From: Cetobacterium somerae ATCC BAA-474
GTDB lineage: Bacteria; Fusobacteriota; Fusobacteriia; Fusobacteriales; Fusobacteriaceae
DNA length: 64,000 nucleotides
Direction: 5' to 3'
Assembly: GCF_000479045.1 (NCBI RefSeq)
Contig: NZ_KI518171.1
Span: forward strand, 42,068 to 106,067
In this document: positions 1,433-20,408 of the stretch, piece by piece
How positions within the stretch are numbered: position 1 is the first letter of the stretch
Layout of the letters: every line of letters begins with the position of its first letter
Position numbers and translations under genes: made by a program
Notes under the pieces: model-generated
Databases searched by the model: none
Seen by the model: the letters and a program-made list of their open reading frames with translations, nothing else
What the model was told of the DNA's origin: nothing

Positions 1433-2314
1433 TTACTCTTTTACCGCTCCTAAAGTAACTCCTTTTCTAAAGAACTTTTGGATAAACGGATATATAATCA
1501 TTATTGGAACTATTGATAAAACTATCACAGCATATATTATCGATTGTGGTGATGTTAAACTTTCAGGTGTAATAATCTGCGCTGCTTCTCCAGCCATATT
1601 CTTCTCTACTATTAACTTCTTTAAGAAAACTTGTAGTGGTACTTTAGAATCATCAGTTAATAAAACCATTGTCCAGAAATATCCATTCCATCTTGAGATA
1701 GCATAGAATAACGACACTGTTGTTAATGCTGAAGTTGATAGAGGCAGGTATATTTTTGTCATAATCTGCCACTGAGTAGCTCCATCTATTCTAGCTGATT
1801 CTTCTAGTGATTTTGGTACAGCTTCAAAGAAACTCTTTAAAATTATTACGTTAAATGTATTTACTGCAAATCCTACAATTACAGATGTATAACTATTAAT
1901 AAGACCTAAGTCTCTAAAGTTCAGATATCTCGGAATCATTCCTGGATCAAACCACATTGTCACAACAACCATTAAAGTTAGAATTTTTCTAAATTTTAAC
2001 TCTGGTTTTGATAAAACGTAAGCTCCAGTTATTGTAAAGAACATACTTACAGCAGTTCCTACAACTGTTATAAAGATACTATTTGCATAAGCTAACCATA
2101 TTCCATCTAGACTCATAGCTGCTTTAAATGATGCCATAATAATCCCTTTAGGTAGGAGATACATCTCTCCTATCTCTAAAAGGTATGGTTTTGTCACTGA
2201 TGCTGAGAATACATATATAATTGGATATATAAACATTATTCCAAATATTGCCAATAGGGAATAATTGATAAAATCAAATATTTTTTCATCTTTTGATCTT
2301 TTAATTTTACTCAT
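1433..2314 (-). CDS. ABC sugar importer permease, LplC/YtcP type (CUT1)
   Basis: Inner-membrane permease of a carbohydrate ABC importer. 293 residues with six predicted helices; the cytoplasmic EAA loop reads EESARIDGATQWQIMTKIYL, which docks the ATPase. It resembles the LplC/YtcP group, which in Firmicutes takes up oligosaccharides such as unsaturated uronic disaccharides. It follows the companion permease by 38 bases and is followed by kduI and kduD, so the likely cargo is an unsaturated glycosaminoglycan disaccharide (inference from context). No ATPase gene is present in the window; a shared MsmX/UgpC-like ATPase elsewhere would be needed. A good AGGAG site precedes the start. Confidence 0.92.
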   Translation of the reverse strand: MSKIKRSKDEKIFDFINYSLLAIFGIMFIYPIIYVFSASVTKPYLLEIGEMYLLPKGIIMASFKAAMSLDGIWLAYANSIFITVVGTAVSMFFTITGAYVLSKPELKFRKILTLMVVVTMWFDPGMIPRYLNFRDLGLINSYTSVIVGFAVNTFNVIILKSFFEAVPKSLEESARIDGATQWQIMTKIYLPLSTSALTTVSLFYAISRWNGYFWTMVLLTDDSKVPLQVFLKKLIVEKNMAGEAAQIITPESLTSPQSIIYAVIVLSIVPIMIIYPFIQKFFRKGVTLGAVKE

Positions 2315-2352: not shown

Positions 2353-3330
2353 TTACCAAAGTCCTGATGATGTTATCTTTTTACTCCATCTATTTGCTAG
2401 GTAAACTAGGATAAATCCAATAACTGCATTGAATAATCCAACTGCTGTTGCTAAACCAAAATCTTGCATTAACATACCTGTTCTATAAACATAAGTACTT
2501 ATAACATCTGATGTTGAATATGTTGCTGGTTGATAAAGTAATAAAACTGTTTCAAACGCAACGTTTAGCATACTTCCAACTTTTAGTACTAACATTATAA
2601 CTATTGTTGGTATAATTGATGGGAAAGTTATAAATCTAAGCTGTTGAAACTTTGTAGCTCCATCTATCTTTGCTGCTTCATATAGTGATTCGTCCACTGC
2701 TGTTAAAGCTGCTAAATAGATTACTGCGTTAAATCCTGTACTTTTCCACATATTCATTCCTGTAAATATTCCTCTAAAGTATTCTGGCTTTGATAGGAAG
2801 TATATCTTTTCAAATCCAAATCTTTCTAAAATGTGGTTTATTACACCACTACTTGGAGAAAGAATATTTATAGTTATTCCAGCTGTTACAACTATTGCTA
2901 TAAAGTATGGTAAAAACGAAACTGTTTGAACGAAAGATTTAAAAAATCTATTTTTTACCTCATTTAGCATAAGAGCTAAAATTATGGCAAATGGAAACTC
3001 AAACACCAAACTATATATATTTAAAAATATTGTATTTTTTAGAGTTGTATAAAAGTATGGGCTTGTTAAAAACTCTGTAAAGTTTGCTAGTCCTACCCAT
3101 TCACTTCCTGATATTCCCCTAAATAGATTGTAATCTTTAAAAGCGATTATAAGACCATACATTGGTTTATATGCAAATATCATATACCAAAGTATAAATG
3201 GAAGAAAAATCAGATATAATGACATTTGATCTTTTACGTTTCCTCTTTTTAATCCAGTCATTATTTTTTTTATGAGACCTACTTTTTCTGATTCTACTCT
3301 TTCATCTAATTCTAAAATATTTTCTTTCAT
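2353..3330 (-). CDS. ABC sugar importer permease, LplB type (CUT1)
   Basis: Second inner-membrane permease of the same importer, 325 residues. A short cytoplasmic N-terminal tail is followed by six helices; the EAA loop contains EAAKIDGATKFQQLRFITFP. The LplB group pairs with LplC and a long extracytoplasmic binding protein, all three of which are present here in adjacent positions. It is the first gene after the promoter at 3367-3395, which carries the 35-nt element shared with two other promoters in this locus, so import and KduI/KduD are probably induced together with the lyase. The AAGGAGGG ribosome site is strong. Confidence 0.92.
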   Translation of the reverse strand: MKENILELDERVESEKVGLIKKIMTGLKRGNVKDQMSLYLIFLPFILWYMIFAYKPMYGLIIAFKDYNLFRGISGSEWVGLANFTEFLTSPYFYTTLKNTIFLNIYSLVFEFPFAIILALMLNEVKNRFFKSFVQTVSFLPYFIAIVVTAGITINILSPSSGVINHILERFGFEKIYFLSKPEYFRGIFTGMNMWKSTGFNAVIYLAALTAVDESLYEAAKIDGATKFQQLRFITFPSIIPTIVIMLVLKVGSMLNVAFETVLLLYQPATYSTSDVISTYVYRTGMLMQDFGLATAVGLFNAVIGFILVYLANRWSKKITSSGLW

Positions 3331-3366: not shown

Positions 3367-3395
3367 ATTATAGTTTAAAATTTTTAAAGTGTAAA
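3367..3395 (-). promoter_or_regulatory. Promoter of the permease-kduI-kduD operon
   Basis: Read on the minus strand: TTTACA (3395-3390), 17 bases, TATAAT (3372-3367), about 37 bases before the permease start codon. The -35 hexamer is the end of a 35-nt element shared with the promoters at 13762 and 16477. Confidence 0.8.
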
Positions 3396-3424
3396 TCATC
3401 ATTTTAGGATATACCTTTTTCTAT
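3390..3424 (-). promoter_or_regulatory. 35-nt putative activator site, copy 1 (permease operon)
   Basis: Minus strand: begins ATAGAAAAAGGTATAT and ends GATTTACA, the last six bases being the -35 box. Compared by eye with the copies at 13785-13819 and 16500-16534, 25 of 35 positions are identical in all three and no gap is needed. Position against the -35 box fits a class II activator site. The AraC regulator encoded at 16560-18557 is the likely binder (inference). Confidence 0.65.
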
Positions 3425-3472: not shown

Positions 3473-5011
3473 TTAGTTACTCGAATTAATAAATCTATCA
3501 TATGACTTTTGATTTATATCTATCGCCTCTTTTAGCCCTATTTCATTTAGTCTATTTAGAAATTCGTCATATGTTTTATTAAAATCTACAGCTCCTAAAA
3601 TCCACTTTTGATTCATCTCTTTTACAGCCATATTAAGTTGCGAATTTATTTTCTGTATTTTTCTATTTTCCTCTTTTGTATATTTTAAAGTTGGCATAGG
3701 ATCTACAATATACCCATTTTGCATATACATCTCTGCCCATTCTGATGCTTTTGGATTTCCCCAAGCCTTTTCATACTCATAATCTTGTAGAGCACCTATT
3801 CTAAATTGTATCCCTTTATCTCTTAAAACCTGTAGAGGTGTCTTTCCATCTGCCTTCATAACTGTATCTGTAAATTTCTTTTTACCATTTTCCTCTTTAA
3901 CAAACGTATCATTTTCTATACCCCAGTTTGACAACTCATACCCTTTTTCAGAGAACCAGTAATCAAAATATTTTATGGCTGCAACAGGATCTTTACATGT
4001 AGCACTTATTCCCCAACCACCTAAATAAGTTGTTCTAGCATCTGGAGCATAACTTTTCCCTTTATATTCTGGCGGTGCTATTGCAACAAATTCAAAATCT
4101 TTCACTTTATCCTTTAACTCTTTATCCTCATTATATGAAGCTGTACTGGCAAACCAATCAAAAGTTACTCCTCCTAAATCATTTCTAAGCATATAGTCTC
4201 TTGCTTGGAAACCTCTTGTGAATATTTCAGGATCTATTAACCCCTCTTTATACCATTTTATAACTTGAGGCATAGCTTCTTTAAATCTCTCTGTTGTTGG
4301 ACCAAATTTTACTTTTCCATTTTCATCTACATAAAATCCTATCTCTGCTCCAAACATTCCAACTAACTCTTTATCAGCAAACTCCACTGATCTTTCAAAG
4401 TATGGAATCTCATCAGCTTTTCCATTTCCATTTGGATCTTTTGTTTTAAAAGCTACCATAACCTCATATAGTTCATCCATTGTCTTTGGAGTTTTTAATC
4501 CTAACTTATCTAACCAATCCTTTCTTATAAATACTCCTTGAGCTGCTCTCATGTTGTACCAATCATAATAATCTGGAATAAAATAGATATTTCCATCTGC
4601 TGCTACAGCATCCATCTTATATCTTGGATATTTCTCAAAAAATGCTTTTATATTTGGAGCATGTTTATTTATCAAATCATTTAATGGCACTATTCCTCCA
4701 TCCATTCCTAAACTTTCTAATTTTTCAGGATAAGCTAAAGAGATAATATCTGGAAGATTTCCAGATGAAACAGCTAAATTAAAAGCTTGTATCTCATCTG
4801 TTAAATTTTTAGAACTATAACTTTTTAATTTCACATTTGTATCCTTAAACGCCTCTTGGAAAACCGTCCAATTTTCATCATATGTCTTTCCATTTTGAAT
4901 AGCTAAAATGCTTAATTCCAAAGGTTTTTCAGAGATCTTATGCTCATTTGCTAAAACTCCTCTTTGTAAAAGTCCCCCAACTAATAGTAATAACCCGATT
5001 TTTTTATTCAT
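3473..5011 (-). CDS. Extracytoplasmic solute-binding protein of the uronide ABC importer
   Basis: 512-residue binding protein of the large LipO/YtcQ group that serves LplB/LplC-type permeases. It has a hydrophobic signal peptide (GLLLLVGGLL) with probable cleavage after VLA near residue 21. There is no lipobox cysteine, so unlike most Firmicute relatives it should be a soluble periplasmic protein, as expected in a diderm. The start at 5011 is chosen over an ATG four codons upstream because GGAGG lies five bases before it and the upstream ATG has no ribosome site. It is preceded by the sulfatase gene (13 bases) and followed by the permeases, which have their own promoter. Confidence 0.9.
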   Translation of the reverse strand: MNKKIGLLLLVGGLLQRGVLANEHKISEKPLELSILAIQNGKTYDENWTVFQEAFKDTNVKLKSYSSKNLTDEIQAFNLAVSSGNLPDIISLAYPEKLESLGMDGGIVPLNDLINKHAPNIKAFFEKYPRYKMDAVAADGNIYFIPDYYDWYNMRAAQGVFIRKDWLDKLGLKTPKTMDELYEVMVAFKTKDPNGNGKADEIPYFERSVEFADKELVGMFGAEIGFYVDENGKVKFGPTTERFKEAMPQVIKWYKEGLIDPEIFTRGFQARDYMLRNDLGGVTFDWFASTASYNEDKELKDKVKDFEFVAIAPPEYKGKSYAPDARTTYLGGWGISATCKDPVAAIKYFDYWFSEKGYELSNWGIENDTFVKEENGKKKFTDTVMKADGKTPLQVLRDKGIQFRIGALQDYEYEKAWGNPKASEWAEMYMQNGYIVDPMPTLKYTKEENRKIQKINSQLNMAVKEMNQKWILGAVDFNKTYDEFLNRLNEIGLKEAIDINQKSYDRFINSSN

Positions 5012-5024
5012 GACACCCTCCATT

Positions 5025-6398
5025 TTATATAATATTTATCCAATCATTTTGCTCTTTTAAAAATAGAGACAATTGATTTTTTAAATTTTTCTTTACCTCT
5101 TTATACTCTATATTATCAACCTCATTTTTCATCTCTAAAGGATCCTTTTTCAAATAAAATAACTCTTCTAAATCTCTAGGATCATATATGTATTTAAACT
5201 CCTTATCTACTACTGATCTTCTTATATCACCAATAGCCACTTGATTTCCTGAATATTGACTGTAAGCATATCTATGCTTTTTTTGAACCTCACTATTTAA
5301 GATATTTTCTCCAACAAAGATCTCTTTACTTTCTAAATTTAAATTCTCTAATACAGTTGGAAGTATATCTAGATGACTGACTACTGTTTCTATCTTTATC
5401 CCATTTTTCTCTGGCATTTTTATTATTAAAGGAACATTTATACTTTGCTCATACATCTCCATTTTCTGAAACATCTTATGTTGACCTAGATGATCCCCAT
5501 GATCAGCAGTAAATACAAACATTGTATTTTCATACTCACCTTTCTCCTTTAACTTTTGAATTATCTCCCCTATTAATTCATCTGCATAATTGGTTAATCC
5601 TAAATATGCTCTCCAAACATCTTTCCAATGCTCTAAATCTTTCTCTTCAGCTAGTTGTGCTGCTATCCCCTCTCTTCTTTTAGGTGGTTCACCTTCACAT
5701 ATTTCATTTATATTTTCAGGAAGTTCTGGGTCTGGGAATCTATCCATAAGTTCTTTTAGTACTCTAAAAGGTGGATGAGGAGCCCATATATTTATAAACA
5801 TCCCTATAGGATTTTCAAAAGTTTCACTTTCTAAATAATTAAGGGCGTTATCAATATAAAACCTATCTCTAAATAGATTTTCAGATTTTTCAAAAAGTGA
5901 AACTCTAGAACCTGTATACTGTCTATCTTCATATATATCTCCATGTCTTTCACTAACTTTAACTCTATCTTCAACGACTCCAAATAGTGGGATATTCTCT
6001 CTTTTACATATTTTTTCATAGTCATCATCTGTTAAAAATTTTTTAAATTTAACTCTATCTTCTAAAGATGGTTTTAAAGTTATATGTTGCATTCCAAAAT
6101 GACTTACATCATATCCACTTTCAAATAGATACTCGTGAATTGTTTTACTGTTTCTTGTTATTTCTGGTATGTTTTTTAAATCATTTATTACCACACTATT
6201 TTTAGTTGGAAATCTTCCTGTTGCTAGTGCAGTTCTAGCAGGAACACATAGTGGACATGTTGTGTAAGCTCTTTTAAAATCAAAACCTTCTGAAGCTAAT
6301 CTATTTAAATTTGGAGTTACCTCTTTACCATTTTGTATCATCCCAATAGTATCTGCTCTTTGATGATCTGTTGTTATAAAAACTAAATTTTTCTTCAC
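5025..6398 (-). CDS. Type I (formylglycine) sulfatase, probably cytoplasmic, acting on glycosaminoglycan saccharides
   Basis: Arylsulfatase-superfamily enzyme, 457 residues. The signature C-x-P-x-R is CVPAR at residues 51-55 followed by TALATGR, so Cys51 should be converted to formylglycine. The metal-binding ITTDHQRAD lies at residues 8-16 and a second acidic motif, FTADHGDHLGQH, lies later in the protein. There is no signal peptide, which places the enzyme in the cytoplasm and suggests that sulfated disaccharides are imported before desulfation. The start is a GTG at 6398 with AGGAGG eight bases upstream; a GTG three codons earlier overlaps that ribosome site. Which sulfate position is removed cannot be read from sequence. 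No maturase (anSME or FGE) is in the window. Confidence 0.88.
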   Translation of the reverse strand: MKKNLVFITTDHQRADTIGMIQNGKEVTPNLNRLASEGFDFKRAYTTCPLCVPARTALATGRFPTKNSVVINDLKNIPEITRNSKTIHEYLFESGYDVSHFGMQHITLKPSLEDRVKFKKFLTDDDYEKICKRENIPLFGVVEDRVKVSERHGDIYEDRQYTGSRVSLFEKSENLFRDRFYIDNALNYLESETFENPIGMFINIWAPHPPFRVLKELMDRFPDPELPENINEICEGEPPKRREGIAAQLAEEKDLEHWKDVWRAYLGLTNYADELIGEIIQKLKEKGEYENTMFVFTADHGDHLGQHKMFQKMEMYEQSINVPLIIKMPEKNGIKIETVVSHLDILPTVLENLNLESKEIFVGENILNSEVQKKHRYAYSQYSGNQVAIGDIRRSVVDKEFKYIYDPRDLEELFYLKKDPLEMKNEVDNIEYKEVKKNLKNQLSLFLKEQNDWINII

Positions 6399-6422
6399 TA
6401 AAAACACCTCCTCTTAATTTTT

Positions 6423-6484: not shown

Positions 6485-8779
6485 TTATTTTTTTAGTTGT
6501 ATATATTTTGTTTCACCACTTCTAATATTATCTATTTTTAAAATAGTTTTATTTTTTTCTGTTCTTATTTTTAAATTTTTATCAGTAGTTTCAACTAGTT
6601 TATAAGCACCATCTATCTCTAAAACAGACATTACATTTGAAAGTTGAGTTGGATCACTTACCCAAAGCTCCAATGTATTACCTTTTTCTAAAGCTAATAA
6701 CGACAGTGTACTAAAACTCTTATATTTATCAACTTTATGTTGATTATCTTGCCAAAAGTTTATTCCAATATAATCTTTAATCTTTATTCCATGAGCTTTA
6801 TCATTTTGAGATAATACTACAATATCATTTTTAGATATTTCGTCTAAACCTACACTGTACAAATAACCTGCATTTTTAGGATTTTTACCATGATTTATAT
6901 AAGTTGTTATATATTCAACTTCTATTGGAGCGTCACTTTTTCCACCTATATTTTTCCAATTTCCTACTCTAGACTCTTTTTTTGTTACTACCTCTTCATC
7001 TGATAATACTGTATATTTAAAGCTTTCACCATCTGTAATTCTGCTATCAATAGTAGTGTGTATTTCACCATCTGAACTGTTAATATTAGATCCCATTGCA
7101 AACATTGTATTATCTATTAAAAACCATGATTTTTTACCTGAAGTTTGATTATTCCATGAAAGAAAATCCATAGCTGCTAAAGTTACCTCACCTGTTGTCA
7201 CTCCTCCTACAAAAGATTTAGGACTCATCTTAACTTTATGTCTTCTCTCTCCAGATCCATCTCTTCTTTCATTTATACTAGCTGTTACTCCTGGAAGGTG
7301 ATACATATCAACTGTTGGCCAAAACTCTTTAGATTTATCTGAATTTTCACCATAGATATATGTAACTCCATCTCCTGTGTACCATCCCTTTTTATTTTCT
7401 CCATTCATTGTTTCATAATTTCCAATTCTAGATGAATACATTCCTATAACAAACTTTATATTTTTTGGTCCCAAATGAACTACTCTATCCATTCCCCAAA
7501 AAACTTTACTTTTTGGTTCACTTATTTTTTCATACTTCTCATTTATTTCTATATCTTTCATTATCTCTTTTAACTTTAAATTGTATATTTTTTCAGTTGT
7601 CTTATAAGATATATTTTCATCTAAAGCTTTCTTTACAAGTTTTCTTATCTTAGTTTTATATGGTTCAGGAGCTCCCTCTGATATCATAGCTACTGATGTT
7701 ACAATTCCTCTACCTCTTTCAAGTTCATTGCTTCCATCTCTTGAAATCGATCTTCCACTAACTGCATCTGTAACTCCACCATTTATAAGTAAAAATGAAT
7801 ATCCATCAATTATAGAATCATATATATTGTTTAATCTCTCATCTTTCATTTCATATTGTGTACCTGATGTAAGGTATAAAATTGAACCTAATCCATTAAA
7901 CAATACTGAAGCATATGTTCCATTATAAGCGATGTTTCCATGTTGTACAAAAGATGAATCTTTATAAAATCCATCTCCTGTAGTAACATACTCTCCAACA
8001 TCTGCAACTGCTGAAACCCCATCTAAAACTTGCTCTTTATCTTCCATTAAAAATCCACGTGTAAAAGATATTATTGATGTATCCATTCTATTTCCACCTG
8101 TTGAGACTCTTAACTCTGGTGATGATGAGTATTTTGCAGATGGACTATATCCTGAATATTTTGCATAAGGTTGAAAATACTGGGATGCTTTTAAATATTT
8201 CATTCTATTTTCTACTGGAATTTCATCATACATAATTGCCACTATTTCATTTATATTTTTTGGTATTCCAAGCTCCCATTGCCACCAGTTTCCATACTCT
8301 GGAGCTCCTTCATAATATGCATTTCTATGAAGCCACTCTAAAGAATCCAAAATTTCTTTTTTAATTTTCTCGTCTTTGTAGAAGTCTGTTCCTGGAACTA
8401 CATAAGCTTTACTTAAGTTTTTTAATCTTTCATAAGTTGTTTGAATTTGAACTCCACTTTTCATATCCTCTAAATCTGAGTATATTGACATTCTTGCTTC
8501 ATTATAATTGTAGTTTTCTAAATTCTTTTTTCCCATGTTATTCAAAGTATTAATTGTATCTTTTTTTACTTTTGGACTTTCTAATTCTAAACTCTCTTTC
8601 CCTGTTAAAAACTCTGCCCATTTTAATCTCATATTTTTAAAATCTTCTTTTTCACTTTGAGATACACTTGATACATTTGCAACTATTTCTTTATTTGAAT
8701 TTTCTTTAATTATCTTCTTTTCATTTGCTTCAACTATACAAACAGATAGAAGTAGCATTAACATTATCTTCTTTTTCAA
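6485..8779 (-). CDS. Secreted polysaccharide lyase family 8 (hyaluronate/chondroitin lyase)
   Basis: Endo- or exo-acting lyase that cleaves glycosaminoglycan chains by beta-elimination and leaves an unsaturated uronic acid at the new end. 764 residues: signal peptide (MKKKIMLMLLLSVCIVEA), an alpha/alpha domain to about residue 390, then beta-sandwich domains. The catalytic set of PL8 is intact: Asn230 (TGGNRMD), His280 (FVQHGN), Tyr289, Arg343 and Arg347; spacings of 50, 9, 54 and 4 match the pneumococcal hyaluronate lyase set. The NWWQWELG patch (164-171) forms part of the aromatic cleft. The gene follows the double-barrel autotransporter by 16 bases, so the two are co-transcribed. Choice between hyaluronan and chondroitin is not decidable here; the linked sulfatase favours sulfated chains. 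Confidence 0.93.
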   Translation of the reverse strand: MKKKIMLMLLLSVCIVEANEKKIIKENSNKEIVANVSSVSQSEKEDFKNMRLKWAEFLTGKESLELESPKVKKDTINTLNNMGKKNLENYNYNEARMSIYSDLEDMKSGVQIQTTYERLKNLSKAYVVPGTDFYKDEKIKKEILDSLEWLHRNAYYEGAPEYGNWWQWELGIPKNINEIVAIMYDEIPVENRMKYLKASQYFQPYAKYSGYSPSAKYSSSPELRVSTGGNRMDTSIISFTRGFLMEDKEQVLDGVSAVADVGEYVTTGDGFYKDSSFVQHGNIAYNGTYASVLFNGLGSILYLTSGTQYEMKDERLNNIYDSIIDGYSFLLINGGVTDAVSGRSISRDGSNELERGRGIVTSVAMISEGAPEPYKTKIRKLVKKALDENISYKTTEKIYNLKLKEIMKDIEINEKYEKISEPKSKVFWGMDRVVHLGPKNIKFVIGMYSSRIGNYETMNGENKKGWYTGDGVTYIYGENSDKSKEFWPTVDMYHLPGVTASINERRDGSGERRHKVKMSPKSFVGGVTTGEVTLAAMDFLSWNNQTSGKKSWFLIDNTMFAMGSNINSSDGEIHTTIDSRITDGESFKYTVLSDEEVVTKKESRVGNWKNIGGKSDAPIEVEYITTYINHGKNPKNAGYLYSVGLDEISKNDIVVLSQNDKAHGIKIKDYIGINFWQDNQHKVDKYKSFSTLSLLALEKGNTLELWVSDPTQLSNVMSVLEIDGAYKLVETTDKNLKIRTEKNKTILKIDNIRSGETKYIQLKK

Positions 8780-8795: not shown

Positions 8796-11700
8796 TTAAA
8801 AGCTATAACTTACTCCAACCATTGGTCTAAATGAGTGATATCTATTTTCATTACCTGTTGCTTTATTTTTAGCTTTTATTGTTAATAGTGTAGCTCCTAT
8901 TGTTCCTGTAAGCCCTGGTGCTAAAGGTTGGATATACTTTAGACTATATCTTGTTTCATAATTTTCAGATTTTATTATCTGAGTTCTTGTGTCATTAGAG
9001 TATCCACCATTATATATAGGGAATCTTGCTTCTAACTGAGTATAAGCTCCATTTCCAAAGAAATATCTAAATGTCGGTCTAATCTGAGTTAGTCTTTTTC
9101 TTTCTGTAGCATTGTTATGATCATGCCACGTATCCTCTCTAAATAGATTTAATCTCATAAATGCTCTTGGCATAAGTCCAGAATAATCTATTCCACCTTG
9201 ATTCTCCATTATGAAGTCTCCTTGTCCCTCTTTATCTCCAATATAATTATATTCATATATATTTGTAGAACTTCCATTTAAAGCAAATCCATTACCCAAA
9301 TTATATATAAAGTTTGGAGTAAGTCTAATTTGGTGAACTCCTCTTTTTACCTCTCTAAAACCTTTTTTACCATAATTTTGTGGTTTTTCACTCGTTTCAT
9401 TTCTATATGCAATATTGATTCCATATCTTCCTCTAGAGAAGGTATCATTCCATCTAGCTTCTAAGTGAACTCTTGTTGCATGTTGTTCCGCTTCATTTGT
9501 TTTTAACCCTTGGAACATTTCATTATCTTTATAATATCCTTCAAAGTAATAAGACCATTTTGATTTTAAATCATTTAAACTCATAGTTAATTTTGGAACA
9601 TATAATGTAGATGCAGCATAATCACCTGGATATGGATTACCATCCATATCAAAATATGTCCTATCTGAATCATCCTCTGCTTCTAATAAAATATTAACTG
9701 TTCCTCTCCATCTATCACTCTTATTTCCAGATAGATTATCGAAATATGTATTCACAACATCTCCTACAGAGTTAAATTTATATTTTCCACCTACAGTTAA
9801 ACTATCTGAATCATATTCTTTTGATTTTGTAGAAGTATAACTTCCTAAAAGAGAGAAATCCTCAGTTAAATTTAATGATGCAAAAATATTGTATGATAAC
9901 ATATTTTCCATTTTTGTCGTTTCTATTCTATGCTTTTCTGATAACCCTTGAAGTTTTAATACTTTTCCATCTTTTATATTTCCCAATTCTGTTTCATATT
10001 CAAAATTTCCACCAACAACATATTTTTTTCCAAATAAATATCCTGTTTTCTCTAAAAGAATTCCAGCCTTTGGAACAACAGAATCATAAAACTCTTCGTC
10101 TACAGTTCCTTTACTATTTATAGCTAACTCATTTTGTGGTTTATTTGTTGGCAACGGATCTTCTGTTATATTCCCTTGAACTATTTTAGTCCAATCTATC
10201 CCTCCATAAACTCCAAATTTATAATCATCTTTTAAAACATTATATGCAGCTACAGTTCCTAATCCAAATCCATATGTTGGGAAAGTTGAATCAAAACTTC
10301 CATAAGTATTTCCATAATTTACTGTTCTTTTTAAAGAGTTAAATGAATTTGTTATTCTAGCATTTGAAGTCAAAGAAAATCTATCTGTAAACTTATAGTT
10401 ATAATATCCTCCTACATAGATATTATTTAAATCTGCACTTCCATATTCTCCACCTTCAAACTTAACCTTTCCATTAGATCCTCCATATATCAAACCTAAC
10501 TTAGCATTATTTTCAATCTGCTTTTCTGTAACTCCTAAAATTCCATGCTCTATATATGAAACATCCATTAATCCATTAATTCTATGATTATTATCCATAT
10601 ATATTACATCTTGTGTTGATGAGTTTGTTGCTCTTTCTCTAGTAAAATCACTTTGATTTACTCTATCCATCATTCTTTTTGATAGAGTTCTTGAATTTAT
10701 AGAAGCTATATCAGCCATATATCCATAAACTCCACCTGAAAGTTGTTTCATAGCACTTGTAAACTCTCCTGCTGTTTGAAGTTGTTCTGCATCAGAAACA
10801 GCATAGATTAATGACTTGTCTATATTTTTAGCTTCTAAAGCACTCTTTTCAATTCTATCTCCTTCTAATAAAGTAACAAATTTAGATAATTTAGATGTTG
10901 TTAATATATTTTCATAACTGTTTTTCTTAGCTATTATATTTCCATCTTTTACTTCATAATCCCAAATTACAGATGATTTTATATTCGCATTTTCACCTAA
11001 CTCAATATCCACTCCACCAAAAGCTTCTGATAAGTTAAACTCGTTTCTTCCATCTCCAGATATAAAAGAGAAACTCACATCTCCATTTAAAACTAATTTA
11101 TCTGCTGAAATTATTGAATTTTCTAAAGTTTTATCAGTTAAAGAATTTTTAAAATCTACAACTAATGTACTGTTAGAGATTTCCAATTTTCCTTTATCTG
11201 CTGTTATAATTCCATCATTTTCAAGTTTATTTTTATTCTCATCAAAGTAAGCTTGATTTCCTTGGTTATATTCTAAATCTATAAAAGAGTTATCTATTTT
11301 GCTATTTCCACCTGTTGCTGATAAAATCTCATAATTCTCTATTCTTATATCTGATAAATTATTATCTCCTTGGAAAAACAAGGCATCTATTCCTACTCCA
11401 CCTAAAATATCTCCCTTTACTTTTCCACCTTTTAATACCACGTTATTATTCGTTGGAGCATCATAATATTTTTCAGTTATAGGATCTTTTAATCTAAGAA
11501 CTTCTGATCTTATGGCTACACCATATCCACCATCTATTACTCCACCTTCATTTACAAATGTTCCATTACTAACTAAAACTGCATTTCCAAAGTTATAGTT
11601 TTTAATTTCCCCTGTATTTACAAACTGCCCAGCTACTTTAACTCCTGAACTTACAGAGTAATTTTCTATTAAACCACTATTTTTTCCTGATGATTCTAAT

Positions 11701-13727
11701 CTTATATCCATTCCTATCCCAGTACTATTATTAGATATAACTCCTAAGTTTTCACCATATCCATTTTTTTCTATTTTCATCCCTAAAGCTTTATCAAATA
11801 CTGTTATTTTTCCATTTTCATTATTTAAAACTTTACTATCTGCTCCAGTTGCACTCATAGCTGATGTATTTATACCTGAAGTTTGGATTAAACCATTATT
11901 TTCAACAGTTGCTCCACCTTGAGCTAAAACTGCATTTGATGTTTGACCATCTCCCTCATGAATTATTGTTCCGTTATTTATCCCTACACTTCCTAATCCA
12001 TCTGCCTTTATACCAGCTGTATATTGTTTTCCTGAAACATAGATATTTCCTGCATTTACTCCCTGACCTGCTCCTGATATTGAGATTCCAGATGAAGAGT
12101 TTCCTGTTATAGAGATATCTCCTAGATTTTCTCCTTTTGCTCCTGTTTCAATTGAAATTCCTATTCCCTCTTCTACGACTATCTTTCCACTACTTGTTCC
12201 AGTCGCTCCACCACTTAATTTTATCCCTTTTGCTTTATTTAAAACTAAAATATCTCCTAAATTCTTCAGTGATGAACCTTCTTTATCAGCTGCCATTCCC
12301 GATGTATTTACCGCTGATACTTGAATCAATCTGTTATTTTCAATGTATCCTCCTGTTTGAGCTAACATTGCGTTTGATGTTTGACCATCTCCCTCATGAA
12401 TTATTACTCCATTATTTATTCCTGTACTTCCTACTCCATCTACTTTCATTCCTGATGTATACTGCTTTCCTGAAACATAGATATTTCCATTATTTATTCC
12501 TTGTCCTTTTGCTGAGATAAGCATTCCTGAAGAAGAATTTCCTGATACATTTATTACTCCTGTTGTTTCATTTATTCCTTGAGCATTTTCTCCTGATACT
12601 AAAAATCCAACTGTATTATTAGTTTGTAAATTTATTGTTCCCTCATTTTTTCCTATTCCATTTGCTGAGACTTTTATCCCATTTACCTGTCCCGTTTTTT
12701 CAGTGGGAGCTCCATAAGATACATTTATCGTTCCTTTATTTATTGCTTTAGAATTTATTCCTTCATTTACTCCTTGAACCATCATTCCTGATGAGTCTTT
12801 TCCTGATATATTTATTATTCCTGTTTCAGTGTTTTCTACATATCCACCATTTTGCGATAGTATTGCATTTGAAATATTAACTCCATCTCCTTCATGGTTT
12901 ATTATTCCACTATTTATCCCTTGAGTTCCTATTCCAAAAGCTTGCATTCCAACAGTACCTGCTCCAGCTGTAACATTTATTATCCCTTTATTTTCTGCTA
13001 TTGGATTCTTTTTAGATGATTCGCTTACCTTTATTCCAACAGAATTATTTCCTGATACATTTATTACTCCTGTTGTTTCATTTATTCCTTGAGCATTTTC
13101 TCCTGATACTAAAAATCCAACTGTATTATTAGTTTGCAAATTTATTGTTCCTTCATTTATTCCAATACCGCTGGCAGAAACTTTTACTCCGTTTACTGAA
13201 CTTTCTCCATCTCCTTTTCCATAAGATACATTTATTATCCCCTTATTTATCCCTTGAGAGTTTACTTCATCTTTTACCCCCTGAATTAACATTCCTGAAG
13301 AATCTTTTCCTGATATATTTATTACTCCTAATTTACCGTTTTCTATATATCCGCCATTTTGACTAAACATAGCATTCGAAGCCTTTGCTCCATCACCTGA
13401 GTGATTTATGATTCCATTATTTATTCCTTTAGCTCCTACTCCAGTTGACTGCATTGCTTTTGCCGTTCCTCCATTGACAACAATAGTTCCTCTATTTTCA
13501 ACTATTGATGGCTCTCTAGATGCAACCATACCCGTTGCATTTCCACTTATCGTTAGCGTTGCATTATTAATTTTATTTTGGTTTTCATATGCTTGTATAG
13601 CGTTTCCCGTATCTTTTACTAAATCTTTATTATTTTCAATTACAGTAAAATTTGAATAACTCACTAAACTCTTGCTAGAAAACAATAGAAAGATTCCTAA
13701 CAATACCATTTTCTCTTTCGCTTTCAT
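8796..13727 (-). CDS. Large autotransporter-like outer-membrane protein with two consecutive beta-barrel regions
   Basis: 1643 residues. A signal peptide (to about residue 24) is followed by a beta-helical passenger (about 25-990) made of degenerate repeats of the kind GINNGxIxxxGDG-SNAxxxQxGGxxEN. Residues 993-1318 are a usual autotransporter linker and barrel, opening with MKQLSGGVYGYMADIA and closing on the strand LTVGGKYKF, where such proteins normally end. Here a further 325 residues follow, again rich in alternating aromatic/polar strands and ending with VGVSYSF, a second outer-membrane C-terminal signature. I read this as a fused porin-like barrel. It heads an operon with the secreted PL8 lyase and has the 35-nt regulatory element, so it may bind glycosaminoglycan and admit it through the outer membrane (inference). 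Repeats in the DNA reach 101 bases. Confidence 0.85.
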   Translation of the reverse strand: MKAKEKMVLLGIFLLFSSKSLVSYSNFTVIENNKDLVKDTGNAIQAYENQNKINNATLTISGNATGMVASREPSIVENRGTIVVNGGTAKAMQSTGVGAKGINNGIINHSGDGAKASNAMFSQNGGYIENGKLGVINISGKDSSGMLIQGVKDEVNSQGINKGIINVSYGKGDGESSVNGVKVSASGIGINEGTINLQTNNTVGFLVSGENAQGINETTGVINVSGNNSVGIKVSESSKKNPIAENKGIINVTAGAGTVGMQAFGIGTQGINSGIINHEGDGVNISNAILSQNGGYVENTETGIINISGKDSSGMMVQGVNEGINSKAINKGTINVSYGAPTEKTGQVNGIKVSANGIGKNEGTINLQTNNTVGFLVSGENAQGINETTGVINVSGNSSSGMLISAKGQGINNGNIYVSGKQYTSGMKVDGVGSTGINNGVIIHEGDGQTSNAMLAQTGGYIENNRLIQVSAVNTSGMAADKEGSSLKNLGDILVLNKAKGIKLSGGATGTSSGKIVVEEGIGISIETGAKGENLGDISITGNSSSGISISGAGQGVNAGNIYVSGKQYTAGIKADGLGSVGINNGTIIHEGDGQTSNAVLAQGGATVENNGLIQTSGINTSAMSATGADSKVLNNENGKITVFDKALGMKIEKNGYGENLGVISNNSTGIGMDIRLESSGKNSGLIENYSVSSGVKVAGQFVNTGEIKNYNFGNAVLVSNGTFVNEGGVIDGGYGVAIRSEVLRLKDPITEKYYDAPTNNNVVLKGGKVKGDILGGVGIDALFFQGDNNLSDIRIENYEILSATGGNSKIDNSFIDLEYNQGNQAYFDENKNKLENDGIITADKGKLEISNSTLVVDFKNSLTDKTLENSIISADKLVLNGDVSFSFISGDGRNEFNLSEAFGGVDIELGENANIKSSVIWDYEVKDGNIIAKKNSYENILTTSKLSKFVTLLEGDRIEKSALEAKNIDKSLIYAVSDAEQLQTAGEFTSAMKQLSGGVYGYMADIASINSRTLSKRMMDRVNQSDFTRERATNSSTQDVIYMDNNHRINGLMDVSYIEHGILGVTEKQIENNAKLGLIYGGSNGKVKFEGGEYGSADLNNIYVGGYYNYKFTDRFSLTSNARITNSFNSLKRTVNYGNTYGSFDSTFPTYGFGLGTVAAYNVLKDDYKFGVYGGIDWTKIVQGNITEDPLPTNKPQNELAINSKGTVDEEFYDSVVPKAGILLEKTGYLFGKKYVVGGNFEYETELGNIKDGKVLKLQGLSEKHRIETTKMENMLSYNIFASLNLTEDFSLLGSYTSTKSKEYDSDSLTVGGKYKFNSVGDVVNTYFDNLSGNKSDRWRGTVNILLEAEDDSDRTYFDMDGNPYPGDYAASTLYVPKLTMSLNDLKSKWSYYFEGYYKDNEMFQGLKTNEAEQHATRVHLEARWNDTFSRGRYGINIAYRNETSEKPQNYGKKGFREVKRGVHQIRLTPNFIYNLGNGFALNGSSTNIYEYNYIGDKEGQGDFIMENQGGIDYSGLMPRAFMRLNLFREDTWHDHNNATERKRLTQIRPTFRYFFGNGAYTQLEARFPIYNGGYSNDTRTQIIKSENYETRYSLKYIQPLAPGLTGTIGATLLTIKAKNKATGNENRYHSFRPMVGVSYSF
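11935..12405. repeat. Direct repeat pair in the passenger coding region, 438 bases apart
   Basis: A 33-base stretch (11935-11967) recurs exactly at 12373-12405, both coding for the EGDGQTSNA segment of the passenger. The offset is 146 codons, so exchange between copies would keep the frame. Confidence 0.8.
12541..13151. repeat. 101-base direct repeat pair in the passenger coding region, 510 bases apart
   Basis: Bases 12541-12641 and 13051-13151 differ at one position (12627 T, 13137 C). The offset of 510 bases is exactly 170 codons. Near-identity at the DNA level in an otherwise diverged repeat domain suggests recent duplication or gene conversion. Confidence 0.9.
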
Positions 13728-13761: not shown

Positions 13762-13790
13762 ATAATACCTCACCAATTTTCGTGTGTAAA
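13762..13790 (-). promoter_or_regulatory. Promoter of the autotransporter-PL8 operon
   Basis: Minus strand: TTTACA (13790-13785), 17 bases, TATTAT (13767-13762), about 35 bases before the start codon. The -35 overlaps copy 2 of the shared 35-nt element. Confidence 0.72.
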
Positions 13791-13819
13791 TCAGCCGTTT
13801 TTTATATACTTTTTTCTAT
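13785..13819 (-). promoter_or_regulatory. 35-nt putative activator site, copy 2 (autotransporter-PL8 operon)
   Basis: Minus strand: begins ATAGAAAAAAGTATAT and ends GATTTACA. Length and register are identical to the copies at 3390-3424 and 16500-16534. Confidence 0.65.
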
Positions 13820-15228: not shown

Positions 15229-16419
15229 CTACCAATATTTTTTCCACTCTGGTTTAAATAATCTTGTTAAAGCCTCTAAATAATAGTAATCTCCCCAGAT
15301 GTTACACTCTTTAACTCCTGAACCGTGAGGAATTGAGTAAACTGCATCTGTTAAAAGTCCATTAGAATAATCTAAATCTTTTGTACTATAGTTTTTCATA
15401 AGTGATTTCATCATTTTATGAGCTGCATTTAAATAGATCTCTCTATCTGGATCATTTGCATCTAAATATTGATCCATCTCTAAAATTCCACATACTGCTA
15501 TAGCTGCAGCTGATGTATCTCTTGGTTGTCCAGAGCCATCTGTAAACACTAAATCCCAGTAACATACGTCATCTTCTGGTAGATTATTTATAAAGTAATT
15601 TGTAACTCTTTTATAAAGGTCCATATATCTTTTATCTTTTGTATAACCATAAGCTAATGGGAATCCATAAACTCCCCAAGCTTGTCCTCTTGCCCAAGCT
15701 GAAGTATCTGAATAACCTTGTGCAGTAACTCCTCTTGTAGGTTCTCCTGTCTCATGATCAAAATAATATGTGTGATGAGTTGATGAATCCTCTCTAACAA
15801 CAACACTTGAAGCTGTAGCTAAATGTTTCGCTCCAATCTCAGCAAATTTTTTATCCCCAGTCATCTCTGTTGCCCAAAATAATAATGGCACATTCATATT
15901 ACAATCTATAATAAGTCTATAATCCTCTGGTTTTCCTAGATCTCCCCAAGCCTGAATAAACTGCCCTTTCTCTTGAAATCTTGTTATTAAGTGTTCAGCA
16001 GCTTTTATTCCTACCTCTTTAGCTAATTCACTTCCTGTAACTCTCTCTTGAGCAACTGCTGAAAGAGAGTATAAAAATCCAATATCATGGTGATTAACGT
16101 GCACCTTATTCTCTATTCTTGTTTTATAACCTTTTAATTGGTACTCAGCTATTTTTCTATATTTTTCATTTTCAGTCATCTCATAAGATAACCATAACAT
16201 CCCTGTCCAAAATCCTACTGTCCAATCATCAAAATCCTCTGCATTTTTTGTTCCAGGATATATATTATTTACACTAGCTGCTCTTGGGTATGTATCTATA
16301 AATACCTTTGAATTTTCATCTACTTTCTTCATAGCTTCGTGCATTGCAAAAAATAGATCCTCTTTTGACAGCCTAAACTCTTTTGAATATTTCTCTCTCG
16401 TCTTTTTTAATATCTCCAT
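15229..16419 (-). CDS. Unsaturated glucuronyl hydrolase, GH88
   Basis: Hydrates the C4-C5 double bond of the unsaturated uronic acid left by PL8, releasing 5-keto-4-deoxyuronate (the KduI substrate) and an amino sugar. 396 residues, no signal peptide, hence cytoplasmic. Asp112 (HHDIGF) and Asp172 (IDCNMN) correspond in spacing to the two catalytic aspartates Asp88 and Asp149 of the Bacillus enzyme. Other GH88 landmarks are WTVGFWTGMLWLSYE, AWARGQAWGVYGF and RDTSAAAIAVCGI. The start at 16419 has GAGGGGAG just upstream; an in-frame TTG seven codons earlier has no such site. It has its own promoter carrying the shared 35-nt element. Confidence 0.93.
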   Translation of the reverse strand: MEILKKTREKYSKEFRLSKEDLFFAMHEAMKKVDENSKVFIDTYPRAASVNNIYPGTKNAEDFDDWTVGFWTGMLWLSYEMTENEKYRKIAEYQLKGYKTRIENKVHVNHHDIGFLYSLSAVAQERVTGSELAKEVGIKAAEHLITRFQEKGQFIQAWGDLGKPEDYRLIIDCNMNVPLLFWATEMTGDKKFAEIGAKHLATASSVVVREDSSTHHTYYFDHETGEPTRGVTAQGYSDTSAWARGQAWGVYGFPLAYGYTKDKRYMDLYKRVTNYFINNLPEDDVCYWDLVFTDGSGQPRDTSAAAIAVCGILEMDQYLDANDPDREIYLNAAHKMMKSLMKNYSTKDLDYSNGLLTDAVYSIPHGSGVKECNIWGDYYYLEALTRLFKPEWKKYW

Positions 16420-16439
16420 TCTTATCTCCCCTCTTATCA

Positions 16440-16456
16440 AGTTTAAAATTTAAACT
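16440..16456. promoter_or_regulatory. Inverted repeat in the GH88 leader
   Basis: AGTTTAAA, one base, TTTAAACT: 8-bp perfect arms about 20 bases downstream of the -10 box. Could be an operator or chance in AT-rich DNA. Confidence 0.3.
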
Positions 16457-16476: not shown

Positions 16477-16505
16477 ATTATACGAGTATTTTTTTTGGTT
16501 GTAAA
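16477..16505 (-). promoter_or_regulatory. Promoter of the GH88 gene
   Basis: Minus strand: TTTACA (16505-16500), 17 bases, TATAAT (16482-16477). Confidence 0.8.
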
Positions 16506-16534
16506 TCTTCTTTTTTGCATCTTCCTTTTTCTAT
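16500..16534 (-). promoter_or_regulatory. 35-nt putative activator site, copy 3 (GH88)
   Basis: Minus strand: begins ATAGAAAAAGGAAGAT and ends GATTTACA. Same length and placement as the copies at 3390 and 13785. Confidence 0.65.
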
Positions 16535-16559: not shown

Positions 16560-18557
16560 TTATTTTTCTAAGATCTCTTCTGGATTAAATTGTGTTGGAG
16601 ATATCCCCTCATATTTCTTGAATATTCTTATAAATGTATTAGAACTATTATAACCTAACTCTTCTGCTAAATCTTTTATCTTTATATCTTTTTTCTCTTT
16701 TAATATCTCTTTTGCTTTCTCTATTCTATAAAGATTTATATAATTTTTAAAGTTATCTCCCATAACTTTTTTAAATAATATACTGGTATATTTAAATGAT
16801 AATCCTAAATAATCTGCCAAATTATCTAAAGAAAAATCTATTTGATAGTTTTTATCTATATAATTTTTTATTTTCTCTCTTATGGCTTCATTTTCATCCT
16901 GTTCACTAGTCTTTTTTTGTTTACATATTTCAGTTATAAGTTCATTAAAAATACTTCTAATTTTCTCTAAATTTCCTGTTTTTGTAATACTTTCAATATC
17001 TAATTTCTCACAACGCAATGAACTTTCAAACTCTTTTAACTGAACGACAACTCTATTTAAAGTGTTATAAAGTAGTCCTGTAAACTCTTTGATATCCTTT
17101 TTATCCATTGCTTCTGGATTTATTCTATCTATGAATATTTCATCTACTATTTTTTTAGCACCCTGTAAGTTTCCATTTAGTAGCTTTGAAACTAATTTCG
17201 CTTCTGTTTCAATAGGATATGTAAGTATTAGTTTTCCACTTTTTATATTTTCAGAAAATAGAACTTTTCTTCCTTTAGCCATAAACTTTGCATCTAAAAT
17301 CTTTTTACAAGTTATATACTGTTGGGGGAAACTCTCTACAGATACAAACTCTTTTGATACTGCAGCTATTAACTCTACACTATATTTTTGTCCTATATTT
17401 TCCAACATAAAGTGAAAAGCATCCTCAATAACAGAGTCACTTTCCTCAGGTATTATAAAAGCTATACTTTTGTAGTCTATATCTATATGTTCATAGACTC
17501 CATTTGAAGATAAACTTTCTTTTAAATACTCTCTAGCTAAGGTAAAGTTTTTAAAATCTAACCCTTCATCATCACTATCAAATATCTCAACTAAAACAAT
17601 CTTTAATTTTCTTCCTTGAAGAGATTTTACTTTTCTAGTTAACTCTCCAACTTCATGTATTTTTCTTATTCCTAAAACAAAATCTCTTAAATTCTTTCTT
17701 CTATCTACAACTGCTAATGTATTTATCTCTCCTATTAATTCTTTTCTTTCTTTATACAATTTAATAGAATAATCTATTAACATAGCTAAAAGCCCTAAAG
17801 CTAAAAATATAACTATCGACATTAAAAATAGCATTTGATAAAAATGAGAATAGTTTGGTGTATATAAAAACTTAAAATTTAATCCACTGCTTCTTAAAAC
17901 GTAACCCCCATCACCTTTTCTTTTGGTTACAATATTTCTCTCTAGCTGATAGACTTTATTATCTTTTAAAATTTCCCACTTTCCTACTTCATCATCAAAA
18001 AGACTTGAGAAAAAAAGATCTCTATCTAAATTTACAATCCAGAAAATTCCCTCTTCTAAATTAAAAATTTTATTTTTTAAAATAAAAACAATCTCTTTTT
18101 CTTGAGGAATTAAAATTAAGTTTGAATTTAATTCCTCTTGTTTTTTCTTTTCTACTCCAAGAGTTTTTAAATAGTTATCTTTATTTTTAGTTCCATCTCC
18201 TGTAACAATAATATCAGAGTTATCTTTTCCTAAACTTAAAGTATATCCACTTTTTCCATAAATATTATTCTTCTTTTGGATTTCTTGTAAAACTTTTATT
18301 AAATTATAGTATGATATCTCCTTTGAGTTATAATACTCCTTTATAGGTTCACTATTTTCCAAATCACCAATAGAGGACATAAATAATTCTATTTTTAAAT
18401 TTATTTTATTTAAAAGCCTTTCAACTCTTAATTCCTCATCTTTTTTATACTCACTATATTCCTTTACTCCAAATAAAAATATAAATATTGAAGCAAAAAA
18501 TAAAAATCCCCAAACTTTTTTGTCCAAAAAAATATTTTCACGTTCTTTTTTTAACAT
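16560..18557 (-). CDS. Membrane-anchored AraC-family regulator with extracytoplasmic sensor domain
   Basis: 665 residues. TM1 (about 14-32) and TM2 (about 240-262) enclose a sensor region of about 200 residues that would face the periplasm. A cytoplasmic linker follows, and a C-terminal AraC-type double HTH (about 565-660), including LADYLGLSFKYTSILFKKVM and LAEELGYNSSNTFIRIFKKYEG. This is the YesN/LplR-like one-protein arrangement found next to Firmicute LplABC importers. It follows the second PL8 gene by 30 bases and so is probably co-transcribed with it. It is the best candidate to bind the 35-nt element and switch on the locus in response to a periplasmic glycosaminoglycan fragment (inference). 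Confidence 0.88.
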   Translation of the reverse strand: MLKKERENIFLDKKVWGFLFFASIFIFLFGVKEYSEYKKDEELRVERLLNKINLKIELFMSSIGDLENSEPIKEYYNSKEISYYNLIKVLQEIQKKNNIYGKSGYTLSLGKDNSDIIVTGDGTKNKDNYLKTLGVEKKKQEELNSNLILIPQEKEIVFILKNKIFNLEEGIFWIVNLDRDLFFSSLFDDEVGKWEILKDNKVYQLERNIVTKRKGDGGYVLRSSGLNFKFLYTPNYSHFYQMLFLMSIVIFLALGLLAMLIDYSIKLYKERKELIGEINTLAVVDRRKNLRDFVLGIRKIHEVGELTRKVKSLQGRKLKIVLVEIFDSDDEGLDFKNFTLAREYLKESLSSNGVYEHIDIDYKSIAFIIPEESDSVIEDAFHFMLENIGQKYSVELIAAVSKEFVSVESFPQQYITCKKILDAKFMAKGRKVLFSENIKSGKLILTYPIETEAKLVSKLLNGNLQGAKKIVDEIFIDRINPEAMDKKDIKEFTGLLYNTLNRVVVQLKEFESSLRCEKLDIESITKTGNLEKIRSIFNELITEICKQKKTSEQDENEAIREKIKNYIDKNYQIDFSLDNLADYLGLSFKYTSILFKKVMGDNFKNYINLYRIEKAKEILKEKKDIKIKDLAEELGYNSSNTFIRIFKKYEGISPTQFNPEEILEK

Positions 18558-18587: not shown

Positions 18588-20408
18588 TTATACTACAATT
18601 ATAACTTCCCATGCAATAGTATAATTAATTGGATTCACTCCTAAATCTATCCAAATTTTTATAAACCTATTTTCCTCTTCACCATATATTTCCAAATTTA
18701 TTTTTTCACTTTTATAAAATTTATATATTAGATTACCTAAAGATATCTCTTTAAACTCCCCAGTTACAAAAGTATCCTTCATTGGCTTTCCATCAATACT
18801 TATAGTTTTATTTTTCAAATTAGAGATTCTCATATTAGCTACAGTTGAGTAAACCTCTCCCTCTCCTGTTATATAATTCTCTAAATAAACCATACCTGTC
18901 TTTTTAAAAATATAGTTTTTCTTACTACTTAACTTACCATTCCAGTTGATAAAATCCATATAGGCAACTCCTGAATCTTTATCTCCATATCCTTCAGCTA
19001 CACTATTTTTAGGCATATTTTCCACAGAACTTTCTACACCTTTTATATTTTCCATTTCCATCTTTATCTCTGTTGTCCCTGGAATATAATAAAAATCTAC
19101 ACCTTTCCAATAATCTATATACTCATCTCCTTTTGAGTATATATATACTGCTCCATCCCCTGTAAACCACCCTTTTGTATTCTCTCCATTAAATGTTTCA
19201 AAGTTACCAATTTTTTTTGAATGCATAGCAAGTCCTATGGCAAACTCTCTATTTCTATAGAAAACTCTATCCATCTCATTAAAACACTTTACCTCACTAG
19301 AGTAACTTTTAACTTTAATCTTTGAATTTTTTAATACATCTTTTGATAAGTTATAAAATATAGCCCTTTTCTCTTTTTCTGTATATAGATAACATTTATC
19401 TAAAGACAGCTCTCTTTTTGCTATTTCTAAAAGTTTTACTCTATTTTCTTCATCCACTCCATGAGCCAATAAAAGTAAAGAGTTTATAACCTCATGTCCT
19501 ATTTGATGATCATTTCCATCCCTTGTTATAGCTCTACCATTAACTATATCTGTCATAGCTCCTTTAAAAAATAGAGGTTCAAAAGAGTTGTAAACTCTTT
19601 CACATATTTTTTTAGTATCTATTTTTTTTCTAAGTTTTTCATCCACTAAATATATTATTTCAGCAATTCCTGATAGTAAAACATTTCCATAAGTTCCTGC
19701 ATATGGTATAAACCCGTGCTGTATGAAAGATCCATCTGCATAAAACCCGTCTCTATTACTTAATGTTTCTACATTTTTTTCAGATATTATCTCTAAAGTT
19801 TCAGATATAGATTCTACTGCTTTTTGACATATCTCTAAACTATTTAAAAGAGCACCTCTTAAAAACATAATTTTGCAAGTATCAATTAAATTTCCTCCAG
19901 TTGCTGGTCTTAAAGGAGATCCACTTGGATGCATTGCCACTGGATTATTTCCTAAATATCTCTCATCTGGTAAAAAATATTTTGTTACATCTATTATCTT
20001 ATCTATTAAATCTTTTTCTAACTTCTCATAAAAAAGAATCAATATATCATTTAATAGTAAAGGATATCCAATCTCCCATTGCCACCAGTTTGTATGCTCT
20101 ACAGACTCTAAATTATAGTAATTTTCATAATTATTTTCTAATACTTCATGAGCTATTACAAATAGTAGTTCATCTTTATAATAAACTGAATTCTCTGTAT
20201 TATAAGCTACCCCTAAAGTTAATATTTTTTTATAACTATCTCTAACTCTTTCTACTAAAACTCTTTTTTCGTTCTCTTCAATTAAAGTTTTATTACATTT
20301 ATATTGTTTTAAAATACCTTCACACTCTTGCTCCAATTTTTTTAAAGTATCCTCTGGTGCAATTTTCCCTGTTAAATATTCTATACGTTTTTTTAATATA
20401 TCCCCCAT
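18588..20408 (-). CDS. Polysaccharide lyase family 8 without signal peptide (probably cytoplasmic)
   Basis: 606 residues, paralogue of the secreted PL8. Catalytic residues are kept: Asn173 (TGGNLID), His231 (FIQHGF), Tyr240, Arg292 and Arg296; the aromatic patch NWWQWEIG is at 107-114. The N-terminus is charged (MGDILKKRIEYL) with no hydrophobic stretch, so it should stay in the cytoplasm. It is about 160 residues shorter than its partner, missing the signal peptide, the N-terminal extension and part of the C-terminal beta domain. A likely job is exolytic cleavage of imported oligosaccharides to disaccharides. It starts an operon with the membrane-bound AraC regulator. Start supported by GAGGGAG. 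Confidence 0.88.
   Translation of the reverse strand: MGDILKKRIEYLTGKIAPEDTLKKLEQECEGILKQYKCNKTLIEENEKRVLVERVRDSYKKILTLGVAYNTENSVYYKDELLFVIAHEVLENNYENYYNLESVEHTNWWQWEIGYPLLLNDILILFYEKLEKDLIDKIIDVTKYFLPDERYLGNNPVAMHPSGSPLRPATGGNLIDTCKIMFLRGALLNSLEICQKAVESISETLEIISEKNVETLSNRDGFYADGSFIQHGFIPYAGTYGNVLLSGIAEIIYLVDEKLRKKIDTKKICERVYNSFEPLFFKGAMTDIVNGRAITRDGNDHQIGHEVINSLLLLAHGVDEENRVKLLEIAKRELSLDKCYLYTEKEKRAIFYNLSKDVLKNSKIKVKSYSSEVKCFNEMDRVFYRNREFAIGLAMHSKKIGNFETFNGENTKGWFTGDGAVYIYSKGDEYIDYWKGVDFYYIPGTTEIKMEMENIKGVESSVENMPKNSVAEGYGDKDSGVAYMDFINWNGKLSSKKNYIFKKTGMVYLENYITGEGEVYSTVANMRISNLKNKTISIDGKPMKDTFVTGEFKEISLGNLIYKFYKSEKINLEIYGEEENRFIKIWIDLGVNPINYTIAWEVIIVV

Follow-up and report, generated by a model that had tools for sequence, protein, structure and literature searches.

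An autotransporter gene with a second, porin-like module in a glycosaminoglycan locus of Cetobacterium somerae: a candidate outer-membrane entry channel

Main finding

Judged by its sequence, the open reading frame at positions 8796-13727 of the window (the whole 64,000-nucleotide stretch of DNA that was analysed) is an intact type Va autotransporter with a second, porin-like module after its complete barrel. We consider it probable, at roughly 0.7, that the product is a two-barrel outer-membrane protein of glycosaminoglycan (GAG) uptake, in which the first barrel displays a passenger and the second is an OmpG-type pore for GAG oligosaccharides. We refer to the frame as the tandem gene. The features of the gene and its surroundings are given in Table 1.

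Table 1. Coordinates of the tandem gene, its parts and neighbouring features in the window
Feature	Position	Strand	Description or basis
Tandem-barrel ORF	8796..13727	-	1643 aa: signal peptide, passenger, autotransporter barrel, OmpG-like porin domain
Signal peptide	13656..13727	-	residues ~1-24, by eye
Passenger	10773..13655	-	residues ~25-985, repetitive, without Pfam domain
Autotransporter helix linker and barrel 1	9774..10772	-	residues 986-1318; PF03797 and alignment
Inter-barrel linker	9717..9773	-	residues 1319-1337; start of porin domain from profile match to stand-alone porins
Porin-like domain (barrel 2)	8796..9716	-	residues 1338-1643 plus stop; ~14 predicted strands; C-terminal VGVSYSF
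Exported PL8 hyaluronate/chondroitin lyase	6485..8779	-	PF08124/PF02278/PF02884
Sulfatase	5025..6407	-	arylsulfatase models, below curated cut-offs
GAG disaccharide-binding protein of ABC importer, Smon0123 homologue	3473..5023	-	5gub/5gx8, E ~1e-158
Two ABC permease genes	2353..3330 and 1433..2314	-	
KduI-family isomerase	543..1379	-	PF04962
GH88 unsaturated glucuronyl hydrolase	15229..16440	-	PF07470
AraC-type regulator	16560..18557	-	PF12833/PF00165
Second PL8 lyase	18588..20408	-	PF08124/PF02278; no signal peptide apparent by eye
Putative operator, 34 bp	13786..13819	.	upstream of tandem-barrel operon
Putative operator, 34 bp	3391..3424	.	upstream of permease-kduI genes
Putative operator, 34 bp, looser match	16501..16534	.	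upstream of GH88 gene
Comparison single-barrel autotransporter	26665..29385	-	PF03797 residues 636-886 of 906; tail 20 aa

Domain architecture

The tandem gene starts with ATG and contains no internal stops. The one convincing Pfam domain in its product is PF03797 (Autotransporter) at residues 1068-1298 (E = 2.9e-15, 57.1 bits at a Pfam cut-off of 26), and this match covers profile positions 33-255 of 255, including the last one. F1318 shares an alignment column with the barrel end of the window's other autotransporter (26665-29385). An earlier note on this DNA had placed the end of a complete autotransporter barrel at this residue, and these results bear it out. The other autotransporter had been described as having one barrel, with which its Pfam match and short tail agree. 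Across the 3.07 Mb genome, 10 of the 11 autotransporter barrels have 20 to 40 residues between the end of the Pfam match and the stop, against 345 in the tandem protein.

Behind F1318 the chain runs on for another 325 residues and ends in VGVSYSF, as the note had stated. The extra domain had been counted from residue 1319 onwards; a second module is indeed present, but it properly starts near residue 1338, so that about 19 residues of linker precede a porin-like domain of about 306. Among the 14 homologues compared, the corresponding aligned stretch between the barrels is always 13-19 residues long.

Like classical type Va autotransporters (PF03797), the protein has a signal peptide (recognised by eye), a long, repetitive N-terminal passenger, a helix linker and a barrel that extends to the end of the profile. 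It differs in that the classical barrel is the C-terminal domain, which is also how a 2022 review describes the translocator (PMC9289746), whereas here a porin domain lies beyond the barrel. Outer-membrane proteins with several barrels have, as such, been described as a class (Solan et al. 2021, doi 10.1073/pnas.2104059118, cited in PMC11494523 and PMC8592465). GfcD/YjbH proteins carry two barrels per chain, as is predicted for the tandem protein, but GfcD has a globular domain in the periplasm between its barrels (PMC11494523, PMC8592465), unlike the tandem protein. The initial statement that no example had been described was therefore too strong; what stands of it is that the searchable papers, an incomplete library, yielded no chain combining an autotransporter with a porin.

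Identity of the second domain

A profile built from barrel 2 also matches one stand-alone protein (L034:5602-6624, E = 2e-11). This protein of 340 residues has its own signal peptide, and its gene lies immediately upstream of that for the tandem protein of genome G034; it is a case of the porin occurring as a separate gene, which the note had envisaged. When the barrel 2 profile is compared by hhalign with the group of stand-alone porins led by this protein, the match has an E-value of 8.6e-9 over 270 columns and spans from just past the signal peptide of the stand-alone porins to their C-terminus. Control comparisons between profiles gave E = 0.15 for barrel 1 with the same porin group, E = 0.5 for barrel 2 with the window's other autotransporter barrel, E = 0.003 (10% probability) for barrel 2 with barrel 1, and E = 0.019 over 18 columns for barrel 2 with an unrelated barrel family.

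The stand-alone protein belongs to PF16946 (OmpG porin) with 25.3 bits at a cut-off of 23, and three relatives in its group score 111-129 bits. Since the direct profile match between barrel 2 and the high-scoring OmpG subset is weak (E = 0.003), the OmpG label for barrel 2 rests on this intermediate chain. Scanned directly against Pfam, the window copy of barrel 2 matched no family; one of its tandem homologues reaches 21.7 bits for PF16946 (below the cut-off of 23), NCBIfam gave no match for the query, and searching barrel 2 against the sequences of solved structures returned nothing or one chance match. Taken together, the profile comparisons point to an affinity with OmpG-type porins. Barrel 2 has in common with these monomeric porins (PF16946, PF09381) its length and, as predicted, about 14 strands and an arginine-rich lumen, besides the profile match through the stand-alone relative and the best fold matches. 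It differs from them in being fused behind an autotransporter and in lying below Pfam detection, save for the 21.7-bit relative. The high-scoring OmpG-type relatives lie within sugar-uptake operons. We take the neighbours of the stand-alone porins to be sugar phosphorylases together with PTS genes, and a GH32 enzyme accompanied by ABC genes; a weaker stand-alone relative in the window's own genome presumably sits among PTS and glycoside hydrolase genes.

A KdgM- or FomA-like affinity had been suggested for this domain, and for this we find no support. KdgM and NanC are porins for anionic sugars and have a basic lumen. The basic lumen and the proposed role make them similar to barrel 2, but none of 11 homologues gave a KdgM match up to E = 10, and we reject that identity. 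FomA was likewise rejected, as Pfam scans lent it no support.

Modelling adds to this to a limited extent. AlphaFold on barrel 2 alone (residues 1334-1643) yielded 14-15 strands with a low-confidence pLDDT of 45.7. With this model, Foldseek against the PDB ranked OmpG at positions 1-3 and 5; the matches (E of 0.004 or worse, TM about 0.3) show agreement in strand order and are no proof of the fold. A hydropathy scan over 14 homologues indicates 14 amphipathic strands. In the same homologues, Arg makes up 14% and Lys 9% of the lumen-side positions, compared with 10% for Glu and 2% for Asp, where the inward-facing charge is partly by construction because the lumen side was assigned by hydropathy. 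Six arginines are invariant, four of them on the lumen side. From these predictions we infer that barrel 2 may be a closed pore with an arginine-rich lumen.

Distribution and passenger variation

We searched the barrel 2 profile against 98 Fusobacteriota genomes. Matches occur in 14 of these, one being a 24-residue fossil (genome G022), and the tandem architecture is present in 13, at 15 loci from four genera and two families; three of the 15 loci lack their 5' part because the contig ends there. Barrel 2 is between 24% and 98% identical to the window copy across the tandem copies, and a gene for an exported PL8 lyase adjoins the tandem gene at every one of the 15 loci. Pairwise distances in barrel 1 and barrel 2 correlate at 0.93 (91 pairs from 14 homologues), the behaviour to be expected if both domains are passed on together. 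Viral contigs provided no further usable homologue sequences, and plasmid records no match to the query.

These data also bear on the concern, raised at the outset, that a sequencing error had joined two genes. That a frameshift, a missing stop or a misassembly fused separate autotransporter and porin genes is exceedingly improbable: nothing speaks in its favour, the frame is open through the join at 15 loci in 13 genomes, and the recurrence in 13 of 98 genomes combined with such a wide range of barrel 2 identities excludes chance and frameshift. We therefore reject a sequencing artefact, given the homologues with an uninterrupted frame across the barrel join.

The passenger is the variable part. 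It measures 985 residues in the window copy and 1335 in a relative (L028) whose second barrel is 98% identical. All copies with the upstream part present have a passenger, except two (L037:9697-11595 and L038:9606-11504). These encode proteins of 632 residues that consist of a signal peptide and both barrels, adjoin a PL8 gene and show about 27% identity with the copy in the window; they come from two genomes of one genus. In an unrooted tree they stand alone on the longest branch, which is compatible with loss of the passenger as well as with its original absence. Because the passenger thus appears dispensable in evolution while the barrel pair is kept, the comparison suggests that the core function of the tandem protein lies in the pore.

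In the fossil mentioned above (G022:C13:15252-15323, in L057), barrel 2 is reduced to its final 24 residues; they lie upstream of an intact PL8 gene and appear to be the remnant of a tandem gene.

The GAG locus and its putative operator

On the 3' side of the tandem gene follow, closely spaced and on the same strand, the genes for the PL8 lyase, the sulfatase and the binding protein, and then the permeases and KduI. The gene of the secreted PL8 neighbour reported before is confirmed; it follows the tandem gene on the same strand after a gap of 16 bp. With the Smon0123-type binding protein, the permeases, PL8, GH88 and KduI, the fusobacterial set for GAG import is complete in the window.

It had also been proposed that the tandem gene and the importer share a putative operator. 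This is confirmed and can be sharpened to a 34-bp site, of which the 3.07 Mb genome has exactly three occurrences, all of them within the GAG locus (Table 1); a control with the reversed pattern gave no hits. Within the window's genome the tandem gene is the single outer-membrane barrel gene preceded by this site. Among relatives a similar site precedes the passenger-less tandem gene, the stand-alone porin of L034 and a 359-residue barrel gene of L054. The AraC-type regulator encoded at 16560-18557 is likely the reader of the putative operator, for which we regard it as the candidate.

Among solved structures, the window's binding protein is closest to the Smon0123-type proteins of Streptobacillus. 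The GAG import system of Streptobacillus moniliformis (PMC5430744) has the same enzymes and ABC importer and a homologous binding protein, but there the outer-membrane step is left unknown, the disaccharides reaching the periplasm "by an unknown channel/transporter" (PMC5430744), whereas the window locus has the tandem protein. As the tandem gene always adjoins the exported lyase and belongs to a three-site putative regulon common to the importer, it is a testable candidate for the outer-membrane entry channel of fusobacterial GAG import.

Smon0128 itself is annotated as a hypothetical protein (PMC5430744). At its position, in a Streptobacillus-type gene order, four loci (L061:15597-17675, L060:10080-12236, L064:10051-12333 and L065:3175-5229) encode a barrel-like family of 684-760 residues without significant Pfam match, which seems to replace the tandem protein there. 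This family was rejected as a relative of barrel 2 (profile comparison, E = 0.019 over 18 columns). At L054 the 359-residue barrel-like protein (16976-18055) adjoins the permeases and has its operator-like site at 18125-18158; profile comparison rejected it as a barrel 2 relative too. Given a further barrel gene at the same locus in L034 and L054, other channels may exist beside the tandem protein.

Two further observations concern the surroundings. Two LUD-domain genes (13984-15170 in the window) are divergent from the tandem gene and are kept at several related GAG loci (L028, L034, L037, L038 and L058). At L031 (13331-16279), L035 (13118-16039) and L058 (11119-14043), proteins of about 975 residues with weak C-terminal PL8 similarity adjoin the PL8 gene; these are possibly large chondroitinases.

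Proposed mechanism and alternatives

In the mechanism that we favour, barrel 1 would act as a type Va translocator that places the long, repetitive passenger on the cell surface; the domain match is direct and the function is deduced from it. The passenger may hold the cell at host matrix or mucosal glycans, or bind them. A linker of about 19 residues, presumably on the periplasmic side, would connect barrel 1 to barrel 2, and GAG oligosaccharides would traverse the latter; the enzyme for these is the exported PL8 lyase of the neighbouring gene. The lyase could work outside the cell or in the periplasm, as both sites fit. The Smon0123-type binding protein of the same putative operon would then hand disaccharides to the ABC importer, and GH88 and the Kdu enzymes would complete their breakdown in the cytoplasm. 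Having both barrels in one chain would fix their ratio and position.

The number of barrels is one point on which another reading is conceivable. Porin-derived strands could have been added to the autotransporter sheet, giving a single merged barrel of about 26 strands with one wide pore. The total is even, so that the topology permits this, and the barrel 1 end residue is M, G or L in 11 of 14 homologues, where the final phenylalanine normally serves as BAM signal; such a loss could reflect recognition by BAM of the chain's last strand alone, or a merger of the two sheets. AlphaFold on the tandem region (residues 988-1643, from a two-sequence alignment) gave an unusable model with a pLDDT of 26.8 and did not discriminate. 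Each half, however, corresponds to a complete family, with PF03797 matched to its last position and barrel 2 having the full length of a mature stand-alone porin, and the join is a near-constant linker of 13-19 residues instead of a short turn. As each half is homologous to a complete barrel and such a linker separates them, two barrels are favoured and we judge a merged one quite unlikely.

Two barrels might also exist without barrel 2 being a nutrient pore: it could serve as structural anchor, as assembly partner of barrel 1 or as a clamp that holds the exported PL8 lyase. The constant adjacency of the two genes would agree with a physical association between their products, and transport could be left to the other barrel genes at L034 and L054. 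Against this, sugar phosphorylase, GH32, PTS and ABC genes stand beside the stand-alone OmpG-type relatives, the putative operator precedes no further barrel gene in the window's genome, and the predicted lumen side is rich in arginine, including invariant ones. We consider a non-pore role unlikely, and retain two barrels of which the second conducts GAG oligosaccharides as the preferred reading.

For the more far-reaching proposal we see the chances as evenly balanced. It holds that an autotransporter and a dedicated porin in one polypeptide would be the missing GAG-oligosaccharide entry channel of this lineage, and that BAM would fold a non-terminal barrel with an internal, often degenerate signal. 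If the two barrels are real, this autotransporter would have its own barrel inside the chain and not at the C-terminus, with a bearing on BAM recognition and folding from an internal signal and on the tying of a surface arm and an entry pore into one chain.

Outside the GAG locus, the window also contains a gene of the choloylglycine hydrolase family (bile salt hydrolase type) at 25492-26583, with a TonB-dependent receptor gene on one side and the second autotransporter on the other.
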